Source: Chloroflexus aggregans DSM 9485 (GTDB lineage Bacteria; Chloroflexota; Chloroflexia; Chloroflexales; Chloroflexaceae). From it: a DNA stretch of 64,000 bases. Made by a program: the position numbers and the translations under genes. Location: assembly GCF_000021945.1 (NCBI RefSeq), contig NC_011831.1, forward strand, positions 3,361,353 to 3,425,352. Reading direction: 5' to 3'. Each line of letters starts with the position of its first letter. Within the stretch, counting starts at the first letter, position 1. This document shows positions 10,183-63,190 of this stretch, in pieces. The notes beneath the pieces were generated by a model. That model was not told the origin of the DNA. It saw nothing but the letters and a program-made list of their open reading frames with translations, and did no database searches.

Positions 10183-11907
10183 ATGGCTAGCCAAGAATCG
10201 CGCTTGCAGCGTTACCTTGAGGTGACTCAACGCGCCAATCAGATTGCCGATAGTACTCAGCTCGATCATCTGCTCGACCGTTTGCTCGACCTGATTATCG
10301 AGATTACCGAATCGGAAGCCGGCACGTTATACCTCTACGATGCGATAACCCACGAACTCATTTTTAAAGTGGTCAAAGGTAGTCCGGCCGGTCAGGCCTT
10401 GATCGGTCGTCGGCTATCGGCTGATACCGGTATCGCCGGCTATGCCTTGCAGCAGCGCCAGCCATTCTTTGTCCATGACGTAGCCAATGATCCGCGCTGG
10501 AATCGGTCGTTTGGCGAAATGGGTGTGTTGGCCCTGCGTACTATGTTCTGTATTCCCCTCCTGTTGCGCGGCGAACCGGTTGGGGTGGTACAGGTCTTTA
10601 ATCTATCGCCTGAGGTAGTGGATGACGACGAAGAGATGGCCCTGATCGAGTTATTGACCTCACGGTTGGTGACCGAGGTCGAAAAAGCGCGTCTGTTGGA
10701 AGAGTCGTGGCGACGTGAGCGCCGACAGCAAGCGTTGGTCGAGATTGTATCGCAGTTGACGGCTACCCTCGATCGCGATGAGCTGTTGCGCCGGATTATG
10801 AACTATGCGTGCGATTTACTTGAGGTTGAAGCGGCCTCGATCTGGCTGATCGACCGTGAACGTAACGATCTGGTCTTACATATTGCCGGCGGTAGGCATA
10901 GTGAGCGAGTGGAATCGTTACGGCTGCCGCGGGGGCAAGGGATTATCGGCCACGTTATCGAAACCGGTGAGACGGTTGTGGTGAACGATGTGCGTCACGA
11001 TCACCGGTTTTATCAAGGGCTGGATCAGCGTAGTGGGTTTCAAACTCGTGCAATTCTCTGTGTTCCGCTCCGTTCACCCCGGATTGTGCTCGGTGGCGAA
11101 CGTGGTGAAATAGAGGGAATGATTATCGGTGGCGCTCAAGCCCTCAATCCACGTGATAACCGGCCCTTCGTTGCTGAGGATATTAGCCTGTTTCAGATGT
11201 TGGCGTCGCAAGCAGCAACGGTGATCCGACTGGCCGAACTCTACTGTGAAACCGATAGCCTGTTTACCCGGATTATTGATGCAATTACCGGTGCTATCGA
11301 TCTGAAAGATCCGTATACTCGTGGCCATAGCCAGCGGGTGAGCGATTTTTCGGTGGCGATTGCCCAAGAGTTGGGTCTGCCACGCGATCAGATTTATCAA
11401 TTGCGGGTGGCGAGTAAACTTCACGATGTCGGTAAGATTCGGGTGCCCGATCATATTCTCAAAAAACCGGGTCGTCTCGAAGAAGCAGAATTTGCCGAGA
11501 TGCGCCGGCATCCGATGTATGGAATGGAGTTTCTGCGTGATAATGGCCTACTCGAACTAGAACTGCTGCGCAATTCTTGGTCGGCACTCGCCCATCACCA
11601 CGAGCGTCTCGATGGGCGCGGGTATCCACAGGGGTTGAGCGGTGAAGCGATCGGGTTGTTTGGCCGGATCGTGGCCGTCGCCGATGTGTTTGATGCGCTG
11701 ACCAGCAATCGCCCGTACCGCCCACCGATGGCGGTTGATGAGGTTTTGGCGCTGTTGCGCCGTGGGGCCGGGAGTGAGTTTGATCCTGCATGCGTGGAGG
11801 CGCTGATCCGGGCTCGTGAAAAAGGGCTTATTTTGACCCAGGATGAACGCGATCGAGCCTTGGCATCGGCAAAGGAGCATTACCATGAACGTGCTGTTAA
11901 TCGATAA
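10183..11907 (+). CDS. GAF-GAF-HD-GYP phosphodiesterase
   Basis: 574 residues. Two GAF sensor domains (about 15-165 and 185-365) precede an HD-GYP domain (about 370-560). That domain shows [18 protein letters not shown] and a downstream [15 protein letters not shown]; these are the metal and signature residues of c-di-GMP-degrading HD-GYP enzymes. The second GAF is interrupted by an insert around [14 protein letters not shown]. No membrane segment is seen, so it should sense a soluble ligand or redox state. The ATG at 10183 has GGAGGGC upstream. The gene overlaps trpG by 23 bases at its end. Confidence 0.93.
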
Positions 11908-12478
11908 CTACGATTCGTTTACCTATAATCTCTATCAGTATCTGTGTGAATTAGGTGCGACAGTTGATGTCGTTCGGAATGATCAAATCACAGTTGCCGA
12001 AGTGGCGGCGCGTCAGCCTGACCGGATCGTGATTAGTCCCGGACCATGTACGCCTGCCGAGGCGGGGATCAGTGTTGATGTGATCCGCGAATTGGGTAGC
12101 TCCATTCCGATCTTGGGCGTATGTCTGGGCCATCAAGCGATTGGCGCTGCGTATGGTGGTGCAGTCGTGCGCGCGCCACTCGTGATGCACGGGAAGCTGT
12201 CGCCCATTTATCATAATGGGCAAGGCGTCTTTGCCGGCTTGCCGTCGCCGTTTATGGCGACCCGCTATCACTCACTGATTGTACGTCGGGAGGATCTTCC
12301 CGCTGAACTGGAAATCACGGCCTGGACGGAGGATGGGCTGATTATGGGTATGCGCCATCGTTCGTTTCCGGTTGAAGGTGTGCAGTTCCATCCTGAATCG
12401 ATTATGACCGAGGGTGGTAAACAGATGCTGGCCAATTTCTTGGCCGGTGTGCCGGTGAGTGCAGGGAGTGGGGAGTAG
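11885..12478 (+). CDS. trpG: Anthranilate/aminodeoxychorismate synthase glutaminase subunit
   Basis: 197 residues, a full class I glutamine amidotransferase. It has [17 protein letters not shown] at the N-terminus, the oxyanion/ISPGPCTP loop, the nucleophile in [11 protein letters not shown], and the catalytic HPES near the end. It supplies ammonia to TrpE or PabB in tryptophan or folate synthesis; sequence alone does not separate the two roles. The ribosome site AAAGGAG lies inside the end of the HD-GYP gene. Neither trpE nor pabB is adjacent, and trpD is 27 kb away. Confidence 0.93.
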
Positions 12479-12490
12479 GGAACAGGGAGG

Positions 12491-13502
12491 ATCAGGACAC
12501 GGATTCACACGGATCTAACGGATTTGCACGGTGTGCGCGATCCGTGGTCATCTGGCAAACTCGTGTTTATCCGTGTGCTAATATCAGGACACGGGTTCAG
12601 ACGGATCTAACGGATTTGCACGGTGTGCGCGATCCGTGGTCATCTGGCAAACTCGTGTTTATCCGTGTGCTAATATCAGGACACGGGTTCAGACGGATCT
12701 AACGGATTTGCACGGTGTGCGCGATCCGTGGTCATCTGGCAAACTCGTGTTTATCCGTGTGCTAATATCAGGACACGGGTTCAGACGGATCTAACGGATT
12801 TGCACGGTGTGCGCGATCCGTGGTCACCTGGCAAACTCGTGTTTATCCGTGTGCTAATATCAGGACACGGGTTCAGACGGATCTAACGGATTTGCACGGT
12901 GTGCGCGATCCGTGGTCATCTGGCAAACTCGTGTTTATCCGCGTGCTAATATCAGGACACGGGTTCAGACGGATCTAACGGATTTGCACGGTGTGCGCGA
13001 TCCGTGGTCATCTGGCAAACTCGTGTTTATCCGCGTGCTAATATCAGGACACGGGTTCAGACGGATCTAACGGATTTGCACGGTGTGCGCGATCCGTGGT
13101 CATCTGGCAAACTCGTGTTTATCCGTGTGCTAATATCAGGACACGGGTTCAGACGGATCTAACGGATTTGCACGGTGTGCGCGATCCGTGGTCATCTGGC
13201 AAACTCGTGTTTATCCGTGTGCTAATATCAGGACACGGGTTCAGACGGATCTAACGGATTTGCACGGTGTGCGCGATCCGTGGTCATCTGGCAAACTCGT
13301 GTTTATCCGTGTGCTAATATCAGGACACGGGTTCAGACGGATCTAACGGATTTGCACGGTGTGCGCGATCCGTGGTCATCTGGCAAACTCGTGTTTATCC
13401 GTGTGCTAATATCAGGACACGGGTTCAGACGGATCTAACGGATTTGCACGGTGTGCGCGATCCGTGGTCATCTGGCAAACTCGTGTTTATCCGTGTGCTA
13501 AT
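12491..13502. repeat. Eleven tandem copies of a 92-bp repeat
   Basis: Units begin at 12491, 12583, 12675, 12767, 12859, 12951, 13043, 13135, 13227, 13319 and 13411, exactly 92 bases apart, with no spacers. The copies are almost identical. The first differs in its opening (GGATTCACACGG rather than GGGTTCAGACGG), the fourth has CACCTGG for CATCTGG, and copies five and six have CCGCGTG for CCGTGTG. The unit contains the word GATCCGTGG, also abundant in the array at 62.6-63.2 kb. It fills the whole gap between trpG and the converging gene at 13516. Confidence 0.97.
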
Positions 13503-22719: not shown

Positions 22720-24599
22720 GCACACTGTTGATCATCGCTCATGATGTGATCGGTCGGCGGATGGCCGGGCCGGGGATTCGGATGTGGGAACTGGCGCGAG
22801 TCCTGGCTCATACGCTACCGGTGACCTTGATCGCACCACGTCCGATTGATTTACCACCAACCGCGGGTGTAACGTATGGTCATTATCGGTGGGGAGAAGC
22901 CGCGAGTCTTGCCCCCTACCTCGCGACTGCTTCCATAGCACTCATCAACGGCTTTGTAGCTGCCGCTCACCCGGAAGTATTGACGTATGCGGGACGGCTA
23001 ATCATCGATCTCTATGATCCGGTAGCGTTTGAGAATCTCGAGTTGTTTCGCCGCCATCCCATGACTGAGCGCCGGCACATAGCCGAACGCGATGTCGCAC
23101 TCTTGCGCGACCTGTTACGTCGTGGCGATCACTTTCTCTGTGCCACCGAGCGTCAGCGAGATTTGTATATCGGTGGCTTGTTGGCATTGGGCCGCTTGAC
23201 GCCGGACCTCATTGATACCGATCCACTGCTGCGCCGTCTGATCGACGTTGTGCCCTTCGGCGTGAGTGATGATCCCCCGCAGGCGAGTGGTCAACCGGCG
23301 TTACGCGGTGTCCTCGACGATCTTGGCCCCGACCACGAGATTATTCTGTGGAGTAGTGGGTTGTGGGACTGGCTCGATCCACAAACGGTGGTGCGGGCGA
23401 TGCCACACGTGCTGACGGTAGTGCCTAACGCGCGGCTGGTGTTTCTCGCCGGGCGGCACCCCGGTTTGGGCTATGAGATGATCACCCCTCAGCAGACACG
23501 TCAGCTCGCCGCTGAACTCGGTTTGCTGGGCAAAGGCGTCCACTTCTATGAGGAATGGATACCTTACGAGCGACGGGCGGATTTTCTGCTCGAAGCGACG
23601 GTTATGGTATCATTGCACTGCGAGCATCTAGAGACGTGCTACGCTGCCGTGCGGTCGCGGGTGCTCGATCATTTATGGGTGGGCAAACCAACGGTGCTGA
23701 GTGCTGGGGATGCAGCGGCTGATCTCATTGTCTCCCATGACGCCGGGGAAGCAGTGCCAATTGGCGATGTCGATGCAGTGGCTGCCGCTCTGATCCGTTT
23801 GTTGGCAGATCCACAACGCCAAGCCGTGCAGAGTGTGAACGCAGCTAAGCTGGGCCAACAATTGCGTTGGTCACACGTGATGCAACCATTGATTTGCATG
23901 CTTACTGTACCGCTTCCAGTTTCTCCGAAGGCAGCGCAATCGCAGAGCGACCATGAAATAGCGTTGGTGGATGCGGATTTACCATCTCAAGAGGAAACAA
24001 TATCTATGGTTACACCTGATATTGACCAGACGGCTGCAATACTGCACAAAGTGCGTAATGATGCTATCAGAGCGCAAGAACAGATCTGGAAAATGGAACA
24101 ACCGGCTTCAGGTGGCTTGTCGTGGCGTTGGTTGCAACAAAAGATTTGGGTGCTGATCATGAAACTCCAACGCGATTACAATGCTGCAGTGTTGCGATCA
24201 ACCTACGCGCTGGCCGAACAAATTGATCACACGACTAGATTGCTCTTTGATGTCTCGGCGCGGTTGGAACAACGGGCGCAGACGCTCGAACAACGGGCGC
24301 AGACGCTCGAACAACGGGCGCAGACGCTCGAACAACGGGCGCAGACGCTCGAACAACGGGCGCAGACGCTCGAACAACGGGCGCAGACGTTTGAACAGCT
24401 CGTGCAGGAACTAAGACTACGGGTGGCAAATCTCGAAGATGGGATGCAAGATCATAACCATCGTCAAGTGGCCGAAATTCATCAAATTGGTCAACAGATC
24501 CGTGATTTTGCCGACCAACTAGCCGGTTTGGAAGAGACCACTGCCCAAGTGTTGGCCCATCTCGGTGGGGTTCCAACGCTGCCGCCTCAGCAAGAATAG
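22716..24599 (+). CDS. GT4-like glycosyltransferase with C-terminal repeat-encoded coiled coil
   Basis: 627 residues. Residues 1-400 look like a GT-B glycosyltransferase: HDVIGRRMAGPGIRMWELA at the donor-side N-terminus, IILWSSGLWDWLDP and a C-terminal VGKPTVLSAGDAAADLI. Residues about 430-627 are helical. Six perfect or near-perfect heptads EQRAQTL, plus a diverged seventh, occupy about 518-566 and form a coiled coil, followed by more helix (ANLEDGMQDHN, QLAGLEE). The ATG at 22716 is chosen for GGAG upstream and its 4-base overlap with the ATPase gene. The coiled coil might act as a scaffold or a length ruler (inference). Confidence 0.8.
   Translation: MSTLLIIAHDVIGRRMAGPGIRMWELARVLAHTLPVTLIAPRPIDLPPTAGVTYGHYRWGEAASLAPYLATASIALINGFVAAAHPEVLTYAGRLIIDLYDPVAFENLELFRRHPMTERRHIAERDVALLRDLLRRGDHFLCATERQRDLYIGGLLALGRLTPDLIDTDPLLRRLIDVVPFGVSDDPPQASGQPALRGVLDDLGPDHEIILWSSGLWDWLDPQTVVRAMPHVLTVVPNARLVFLAGRHPGLGYEMITPQQTRQLAAELGLLGKGVHFYEEWIPYERRADFLLEATVMVSLHCEHLETCYAAVRSRVLDHLWVGKPTVLSAGDAAADLIVSHDAGEAVPIGDVDAVAAALIRLLADPQRQAVQSVNAAKLGQQLRWSHVMQPLICMLTVPLPVSPKAAQSQSDHEIALVDADLPSQEETISMVTPDIDQTAAILHKVRNDAIRAQEQIWKMEQPASGGLSWRWLQQKIWVLIMKLQRDYNAAVLRSTYALAEQIDHTTRLLFDVSARLEQRAQTLEQRAQTLEQRAQTLEQRAQTLEQRAQTLEQRAQTFEQLVQELRLRVANLEDGMQDHNHRQVAEIHQIGQQIRDFADQLAGLEETTAQVLAHLGGVPTLPPQQE
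24267..24413 (+). repeat. 21-bp minisatellite coding for heptads
   Basis: Six consecutive units of GAACAACGGGCGCAGACGCTC start at 24267 and repeat every 21 bases to 24392 (the last has TTT for CTC). A diverged seventh runs to 24413. Near-perfect identity at DNA level suggests recent expansion; unit loss or gain keeps frame and heptad register. Confidence 0.95.
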
Positions 24600-38665: not shown

Positions 38666-38684
38666 TGAGCGGATAAGCCTCGGC

Positions 38685-38713
38685 AGGGCCGCACACTCGT
38701 GCGGCCCTTTGCC
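38685..38713 (+). terminator. Rho-independent terminator after nrdJ
   Basis: AGGGCCGCAC (38685-38694), ACTC loop, GTGCGGCCCT (38699-38708), then TTTGCC. Perfect 10-bp stem. Confidence 0.85.
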
Positions 38714-38714
38714 A

Positions 38715-38743
38715 TTGACCGTAACGCGCCGCCTCGTTACAAT
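38715..38743 (+). promoter_or_regulatory. Promoter upstream of the 18-bp array and trpD
   Basis: TTGACC (38715-38720), 17 bases, TACAAT (38738-38743). It starts immediately after the nrdJ terminator and reads into the repeat array, so the array should form the 5' leader of the trpD message. Confidence 0.65.
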
Positions 38744-38808
38744 ACAAGCGGTGTCGTAGGTTTGCTCGGCAGTGCAATCCTGCCGATGCACTGCCGGGTG
38801 TGGAGGGC

Positions 38809-39204
38809 AGACGCGGTGCCGTGCGGAGACGCACTGCCGTGCGGAGACGCGGTGCCGTGCGGAGACGCACTGCCGTGCGGAGACGCACTGCCGTGCGGAG
38901 ACGCACTGCCGTGCGGAGACGCACTGCCGTGCGGAGACGCACTGCCGTGCGGAGACGCACTGCCGTGCGGAGACGCACTGCCGTGCGGAGACGCGGTGCC
39001 GTGCGGAGACGCACTGCCGTGCGGAGACGCGCTGCCGTGCGGAGACGCGGTGCCGTGCGGAGACGCGCTGTCGTGCGGAGACGCGGTGCCGTGCGGAGAC
39101 GCACTGCCGTGCGGAGACGCACTGCCGTGCGGAGACGCACTGCCGTGCGGAGACGCACTGCCGTGCGGAGACGCGCTGCCGTGCGGAGACGCACTGCCGT
39201 GCGT
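38809..39204 (+). repeat. 22 tandem copies of an 18-bp repeat in the trpD leader
   Basis: Units start every 18 bases from 38809 to 39187. Fourteen are AGACGCACTGCCGTGCGG, each able to fold as CGCAC-TGCC-GTGCG. Units 1, 3, 11, 14 and 16 have GCGGTG, and units 13, 15 and 21 GCGCTG, instead of GCACTG. Unit 15 also has TC for CC. All frames stay open because 18 is divisible by three. The frame of trpD continues through the array as a PCGDAL hexapeptide repeat. Confidence 0.97.
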
Positions 39205-39232
39205 CTGTACGGGGGGAGCGGGGAGTGAGCAG

Positions 39233-40255
39233 ATGAATATTCGCGAGGCGATTGCCGCGGTGGTGGCGCGGCGCGATCTCACGCAGGCCGAAGCGGCGAG
39301 CGTGATGGAAGAGATTATGAATGGGACGGCAACGCCTGCTCAGATCGCGGCTTTTCTTACGGCGTTGCATATCAAGGGTGAGACCGACGCTGAAATCGCC
39401 GGTATGGCGGCGGTGATGCGTGAGAAGGCGACCCATGTCTATTTCGACGGGCCGGTTATCGATACCTGCGGTACCGGTGGTGATGGTGCGCATACGTTTA
39501 ACATCAGCACTACCGCTGCATTTGTCGCTGCCGGTGCCGGTTTGACGGTGGCGAAGCACGGGAATCGGGCGATGTCGAGTGTGTGTGGGAGTGCCGATGT
39601 CCTGGAAGGCCTGGGCGTTCAGATTGAACTTGACGCTGAAGGTGTTGCCCGTTGTTTACGTGATGCCGGCATCGGCTTTATGTTCGCACCCAAGTTTCAT
39701 CCGGCGATGCGTTTTGCCGGGCCGGTGCGGCGCGAGATTGGTATTCGCACCGTGTTTAACATTCTCGGCCCGCTGACCAACCCGGCACGAGCACGTTATC
39801 AGGTATTGGGAGTGGCGAGCGCGGCGCTGGCCGAAAAGCTGGCTAACGCCCTCAGCCGGCTCGACACCGTCCATGCGCTGGTCGTGCATGGCGACGGCGG
39901 GGTTGATGAATTGACCCTCTCCGGTCCAAACCTGATCTTCGAGGTACGGGCCGGGCATGCGCTGCGTCAAATGATAGTTGCTCCTGAAGATGTTGGCCTG
40001 GAACGGGCTCCACGTGAAGCATTGCGGGGGGGTGATGTTGCCTACAATGTGGCATTGGTACGCGCCATCCTTAGTGGTGAAGATCGTGGGCCGCGGCGCG
40101 ATGTCGTCTTGTTGAATGCGGCTGCTGCTCTCGTTGCCGGTGATGTGGCGCCGGATCTGGCGACCGGGGTTAAGATGGCGCGTGCGAGTATTGATAGTGG
40201 ACGTGCGCTCGAACGGCTGCATCGGATGATCGCGGTGAGTCGGGGTGAGGCGTAA
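39233..40255 (+). CDS. trpD: Anthranilate phosphoribosyltransferase
   Basis: 340 residues, normal length, transferring phosphoribose to anthranilate in tryptophan synthesis. Key motifs are DTCGTGGDGAHTFNIST (PRPP loop), KHGNRAMSSVCGSADVLE (Mg/anthranilate), and FAPKFHPAMR (substrate). The ATG at 39233 is preferred because it matches family N-termini (MNIREAIAAVV) and has GGGGAG upstream. The same frame is open 5' through the 18-bp repeats, so an extended product cannot be excluded. The channel-like gene follows after 6 bases. Confidence 0.95.
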   Translation: MNIREAIAAVVARRDLTQAEAASVMEEIMNGTATPAQIAAFLTALHIKGETDAEIAGMAAVMREKATHVYFDGPVIDTCGTGGDGAHTFNISTTAAFVAAGAGLTVAKHGNRAMSSVCGSADVLEGLGVQIELDAEGVARCLRDAGIGFMFAPKFHPAMRFAGPVRREIGIRTVFNILGPLTNPARARYQVLGVASAALAEKLANALSRLDTVHALVVHGDGGVDELTLSGPNLIFEVRAGHALRQMIVAPEDVGLERAPREALRGGDVAYNVALVRAILSGEDRGPRRDVVLLNAAAALVAGDVAPDLATGVKMARASIDSGRALERLHRMIAVSRGEA

Positions 40256-62603: not shown

Positions 62604-63190
62604 GTAGGGGCGAGGCAGCGCCTCGCCCCTACCCCCATCACCATCCCCGATCCGTGGCAATCCGTCGCATCCGTGGGCCAGGACGGGCGAGGCAGCGCCT
62701 CGCCCCTACCCCCATCGCCGTCCCGATCCGTGGCAATCCGTGGCATCCGTGGGCCAGGACGGGCGAGGCAGCGCCTCGCCCCTACCCCCATCGCCATCCC
62801 CGATCCGTGGCATCCGTGGCATCCGTGGGCCAGGACGGGCGAGGCAGCGCCTCGCCCCTACCCCCATCGCCGTCCCGATCCGTGGCAATCCGTCGCATCC
62901 GTGGGCCAGGACGGGCGAGGCAGACGGGCGAGGCAGCGCCTCGCCCCTACCCCCATCGCCATCCCCGATCCGTGGCATCCGTGGCATCCGTGGGCCAGGA
63001 CGGGCGAGGCAGCGCCTCGCCCCTACCCCCATCGCCATCCTCGATCCGTGGCATCCGTGGCATCCGTGGGCCAATCCCACCCTCACATCCGTCGCATCCG
63101 TGGGCCAATCCGACCACCGCATCCGTGGGCCGATCCGACCGTCGTATCCGTGGCCGATCCCACCGTCGTATCCGTGGGCCTAAAATCGGG
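62604..63190. repeat. About 76-bp tandem array with hairpin cores
   Basis: A perfect palindrome of 13-bp arms, GTAGGGGCGAGGC-agc-GCCTCGCCCCTAC, lies at 62604-62632. The same core recurs at about 62685, 62761, 62837, 62935 and 63001, separated by runs of ATCCGTGG-type words. A 13-base duplication of the core occurs near 62923. The end (63060-63180) decays into ATCCGTGGGCC words only. It fills the gap between the DsbA-like and LysE genes. Confidence 0.92.

Follow-up and report, generated by a model that had tools for sequence, protein, structure and literature searches.

Between its promoter and its start codon, the trpD gene of this Chloroflexus genome carries 22 tandem copies of an 18-bp repeat. 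What are these repeats, how did they come to occupy the leader of a biosynthetic gene, and do they influence its expression? We addressed these questions in a window of 64,000 nucleotides (the whole stretch of DNA analysed, positions 3361353–3425352 in a genome that consists of one contig of 4,684,931 bp, or 4.68 Mb) and in Chloroflexus genomes, which sequence comparison identifies as the closest relatives. The comparison set comprises eight Chloroflexus genomes, the present one (G000) and seven congeners, with one genome per species; these are not independent observations. Four sister species (G007, G005, G001 and G002) carry the palindrome described below, and G003, G004 and G006 make up the other clade. 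The features of the trpD region, in window coordinates, are as follows.

38715–38720, plus strand: −35 hexamer (TTGACC) of the trpD promoter, read from the sequence and kept ahead of trpD in each of the eight Chloroflexus genomes.
38738–38743, plus strand: −10 hexamer (TACAAT), read from the sequence, with TACAATAC kept in all eight species.
38767–38796, plus strand: inverted repeat CGGCAGTGCA-10 nt-TGCACTGCCG, read from the sequence, with a predicted fold of −18.2 kcal/mol.
38809–39204, plus strand: REP-derived array of 22 units of 18 bp (consensus AGACGCACTGCCGTGCGG), read unit by unit, with a core common to the dispersed palindrome.
39187–39206, plus strand: last array unit, an intact 20-bp palindrome AGACGCAC-TGCC-GTGCGTCT, followed by GTAC as at a REP cluster at genome position 3950192.
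39220–39225, plus strand: Shine–Dalgarno-like GGGGAG, 7 nt 5′ of the trpD ATG, read from the sequence.
39233–40255, plus strand: trpD, anthranilate phosphoribosyltransferase of 340 residues (PF00591, E = 3.2e-91; PF02885, E = 2.3e-24).

The initial annotation had proposed that a TTGACC-17-TACAAT promoter reads into the repeats. The 17-bp spacing is as described, and TTGACC-17-TACAATAC lies directly 5′ of trpD in all eight Chloroflexus genomes, with DNA farther upstream diverging, suggesting that the promoter is very probably real and conserved in its own right. Because it is kept in every genome and the DNA beyond it differs, the array should be transcribed as the trpD leader, with transcription expected to start near 38750. 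At the other end of the leader, TrpD orthologues within the genus are 93–96% identical, and their similarity starts at the canonical ATG, with MNIREAI... as the conserved N terminus and the Pfam N domain from residue 5 onward.

The array itself is much as first annotated. TRF places it at 38809–39203 (21.9 copies, 94% matches), the unit count gives 22 repeats, and 28 bases separate its 3′ end from the trpD ATG. Exactly 14 of the 22 units contain CGCACTGCCGTGCG, the number originally credited with forming hairpins, and the others carry GCGGTGCC (five units), GCGCTGCC (two) or GCGCTGTC (one). The array consists of 21 units shortened in the 3′ arm and a final unit completed to the 20-bp palindrome, and its units carry GGAG rather than GTAG at the foot. 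No second locus for the 18-mer exists anywhere in the 4.68-Mb genome. The right edge of the array (GGAGACGCACTGCCGTGCGTCTGTAC), on the other hand, recurs in a four-copy REP cluster at genome position 3950192. The inverted repeat at 38767–38796 has a GGCAGTGC/GCACTGCC core in common with the array and is possibly a decayed REP; its similarity to the REP-bearing sister leaders is weak (2–4% of shuffles score equally well), making homology of the pre-array leader with these leaders suggestive only.

A dispersed palindrome, GTAGAGACGCAC-GGCC-GTGCGTCTCTAC, has the array hairpin as its core. The longest recurrent form, GTAGAGACGCACGGCCGTGCGTCTCTAC, is found at several sites and has a GT[AG]G 5′ foot and a CTAC 3′ end. 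Allowing at most one mismatch, GACGCACNNNNGTGCGTC has 17 sites in this genome, 53 in G007, 33 in G005, 23 in G001 and 7 in G002; the 1–2 sites in each of G003, G004 and G006 are at the level of the reversed-pattern control (0–2 sites). When a longer pattern was required to match exactly, 158 genomes of the class yielded it in the same five palindrome-carrying Chloroflexus genomes and in one isolated match with another loop, so that the palindrome is effectively absent from the 150 genomes of the class outside the genus. Where neighbouring genes were read, the sites are mostly intergenic, except for those within RAYT genes.

Such a distribution is that of a REP family, and a candidate for the cognate gene lies beside another array built from this palindrome. 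That array (genome 1752737–1754212) has 26 units of 57 bp with the intact palindrome last, and sits at the 3′ end of the first of two RAYT-like genes, listed here in genome coordinates.

1754223–1754810, minus strand: RAYT-like gene of 196 residues (NF047646; PDB 4er8).
4026094–4026639: second RAYT-like gene (L206), with REPs of the GTAGGGGCGACGC...GCGTCGCCC type inside and beside it.

The first protein contains NHIHAI and YIRNNP motifs and matches NF047646, the REP-associated tyrosine transposase model, with E = 1.5e-18 and 67 bits, under the curated 80-bit cut-off; its match to PDB chain 4er8 (TnpArep) is weak (E = 0.0043). It also falls below the Pfam Y1_Tnp cut-off and was found by reading the sequence beside the 57-bp array. 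Genes that do match Pfam Y1_Tnp were considered as cognate RAYTs and rejected, as they have no matching palindromes within ~1 kb; the one exception is a G007 Y1 gene that lies ~1.7 kb from a palindrome cluster.

Close relatives of the first gene are present, complete or in pieces, in G007, G002 and G005. In all five palindrome-carrying genomes a REP lies 3′ of the RAYT-like gene or its remnant: at 5 bp in G000, 30 bp in G007 and 22 bp in G002, ~28 bp from an 84% RAYT fragment in G005, and, as a diverged copy, 50 bp from a remnant in G001. No second flanking REP was found within 1.5 kb 5′ of the gene where the flank was available. The palindrome also occurs in frame inside the gene, between the HuH and Y motifs, in G000 (at nt 320) and G007, the two species with a full-length copy, and the second RAYT-like gene likewise has an in-frame REP between HuH and Y. 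In G003, G004 and G006 the best matches to the RAYT-like protein are only 37–41% identical; the exception is a G004 fragment of 79 residues (49%).

The initial annotation had treated the repeat as a feature of the trpD leader, overlooking both the REP family with its related RAYT gene and the occurrence of similar arrays away from trp genes. A further such array lies within the window.

62604–63073, plus strand: the window's other REP-derived array, built from a different REP family, outside the trpD leader and alike in architecture.

It begins with one intact GTAGGGGCGAGGC-AGC-GCCTCGCCCCTAC; the ~76-bp units that follow carry copies devoid of a 5′ foot. A REP type related to this family has its own RAYT at 4026094–4026639 and a run of copies at 570132–573045, where ~16 REPs of the GTAGGGGCGACGC...GCGTCGCCC type occur, many ~120 bp apart. 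Truncated units together with one intact REP are thus the layout of three arrays (trpD, 1752737–1754212 and window 62604–63073), indicating that the seeding of tandem arrays by REPs is general in this genome and not specific to trpD.

The window holds other tandem arrays as well, at 1324–1585 (75 bp × 3.5), 24267–24423 (21 bp × 6) and 12491–13502 (92 bp × 11, 99% matches). The last of these starts 13 bp past the stop codon of the gene at 11843–12478, which we take, by eye from its sequence, to be trpG-like. The trpG-like gene and trpD thus each adjoin a tandem array within one window.

We consider it very likely that the trpD array arose by tandem expansion of a REP inside the transcribed trpD leader. 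A REP would have been placed in a short (~40-nt) ancestral leader, and local duplication, by slippage or by stalling at the hairpin, would have copied its 5′ arm and loop many times over. Transcription from the promoter would then run through the array to give a structured leader of ~480 nt, which may fold into local stems or longer hairpins between units, and translation of trpD would begin at the conserved ATG (39233). As to its present role, the array is most likely tolerated mobile-element debris, although it may plausibly dampen or stabilize trpD mRNA in proportion to copy number.

The trpD leaders of the other species fit this course of events. In four sister species, the palindrome or a diverged form of it lies between the trpD promoter and the start codon. 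Between the −10 hexamer and the ATG there are 38–39 nt in the three palindrome-free species, 59, 60, 90 and 195 nt in the four sisters, and 489 nt here. Repeat number, which the initial annotation suggested comparing in related strains, does vary between species, each represented by one genome, with 22 units here, ~6, 2, 1 and 1 REPs in the four sisters and none in the other three. The trpD array is oriented opposite to the REPs in the sister leaders, which makes it uncertain that all of them descend from a single ancestral insertion.

Persistence of a REP in the trpD leader of five species could mean function, but taken alone it speaks for this weakly. Comparable behaviour is seen elsewhere: 5′ of a methyltransferase gene there are 4 REPs here, 2 in G007, 1 in G005 and none in G002, and four species (G000, G007, G005 and G001) have in common a REP-like palindrome 5′ of a permease gene (L121). 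Cross-species retention and copy-number change are therefore both normal for REPs, and retention at trpD is in itself no proof of function. One REP-like hairpin (L121, L199, L200 and L202) lies between ABC transporter genes in four Chloroflexus species, with changes in loop and stem.

The alternative that fares best, possible though on balance doubtful, is a leader tuned by copy number, in which the hairpins would set transcript stability, leader transcription or ribosome access, and slippage would shift trpD expression between strains. The conserved promoter upstream of the array and the variation in leader REP number among species are in keeping with it, as is the strong structure predicted for the leader even at 55 °C. 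Furthermore, REPs of E. coli reportedly influence mRNA stability, and those near stop codons influence translation (PMC12306157), although that position is unlike the one in the trpD leader. The predicted structure is not quite the one first envisaged. A string of small stems is one possible fold, with predicted energies of −236 kcal/mol at 37 °C and −144 kcal/mol at 55 °C, but the unrestricted fold (−307 and −211 kcal/mol, respectively) is the more stable and joins adjacent units into long hairpins. For GCGG units the predicted hairpin reaches −2.9 kcal/mol, against −5.9 kcal/mol, which shows that stem stability is not strictly maintained; the persistence of these weakened units counts against tuning. 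So do the similarly laid-out REP arrays at loci with no connection to trp, and the position of the Shine–Dalgarno sequence and ATG outside the array. The fuller version, in which a REP was kept in five Chloroflexus trpD leaders and expanded here to a 22-unit leader whose copy number would set trpD expression, we regard as improbable; if true, a mobile palindrome would have been turned into a tunable expression dial.

We find no evidence for the array as a dedicated regulator or as coding sequence. Tandem palindromes between the promoter and the start codon of a biosynthetic gene might serve as a series of binding sites for a protein or as an attenuator that responds to tryptophan, but this is very improbable given that many sites unrelated to trp carry the core palindrome, that three congeners have the same promoter without the palindrome, and that reading the trpD leader sequence revealed neither a U-tract terminator nor a Trp-rich leader peptide.

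Equally implausible is the coding extension proposed by the initial annotation, in which translation would begin within the array and add a Cys-containing PCGDAL repeat to TrpD. The trpD frame is indeed open through the array, from 38669 to 40255, and units 3, 11, 14 and 16 offer an in-frame GTG 5 nt after GGAG, from which a minor extended form of TrpD could in principle start, an extension that we consider unlikely. The other five frames are open across the array too, which makes the openness of the trpD frame uninformative; when the repeat unit is divisible by three in length, a frame that stays open across the array should not be taken as a sign of coding. The proposal also runs against the homology of TrpD, which begins only at the canonical ATG with its own Shine–Dalgarno sequence, and against the stop codon that lies in frame within the leader of one sister species, 45 nt ahead of its ATG. 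Finally, the related array of 57-bp units includes 56-bp units, indicating that coding is not what maintains such arrays.

Among known systems, the REP family that we consider the source of the array most resembles TnpA-REP subclass 2.4, which is characterized by GTAG...CTAC double-foot REPs and by a REP in frame inside the gene (PMC6006769). Shared with this subclass are a dispersed palindrome with 5′ GTAG and 3′ CTAC beside a RAYT-like HuH-Y1 gene, a palindrome in frame within that gene between the HuH and Y motifs, and more than one RAYT per genome, each with its own REP type (PMC6006769). Unlike subclass 2.4, this genome has just ~17 palindrome sites, and its trpD units are truncated, with GGAG for GTAG and an 18-bp period.

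The array also resembles bacterial minisatellite or VNTR loci in its head-to-tail units with few variants, and its copy number differs between species (one genome per species compared), but it differs from them in being REP-seeded and in ending in one intact palindrome. Thermomicrobium roseum is, on our own reading, the Chloroflexi case in the account of GTAG-tagged REPs cited next. GTAG-tagged REPs can be reiterated in tandem with flanking DNA, with Chloroflexi already known as carriers, and those of T. roseum are clustered in large blocks (PMC3733652). The present arrays are like those clusters in that REPs are repeated together with flanking DNA, and the trpD array is unlike them in lying in a promoter-proximal leader.

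A literature search for REP or RAYT in Chloroflexus by name returned unrelated papers only, and the words Chloroflexus and Roseiflexus are absent from the main text of PMC3733652, so the family seems undescribed there. What is apparently new, then, is a Chloroflexus REP family expanded in tandem, with Chloroflexi GTAG REPs and tandem REP clusters already known (PMC3733652). The trpD leader array is thereby tied to a REP family with a candidate RAYT in Chloroflexus that has apparently gone undescribed until now, and the presence of three arrays of the same layout in one genome suggests how REPs seed minisatellites.
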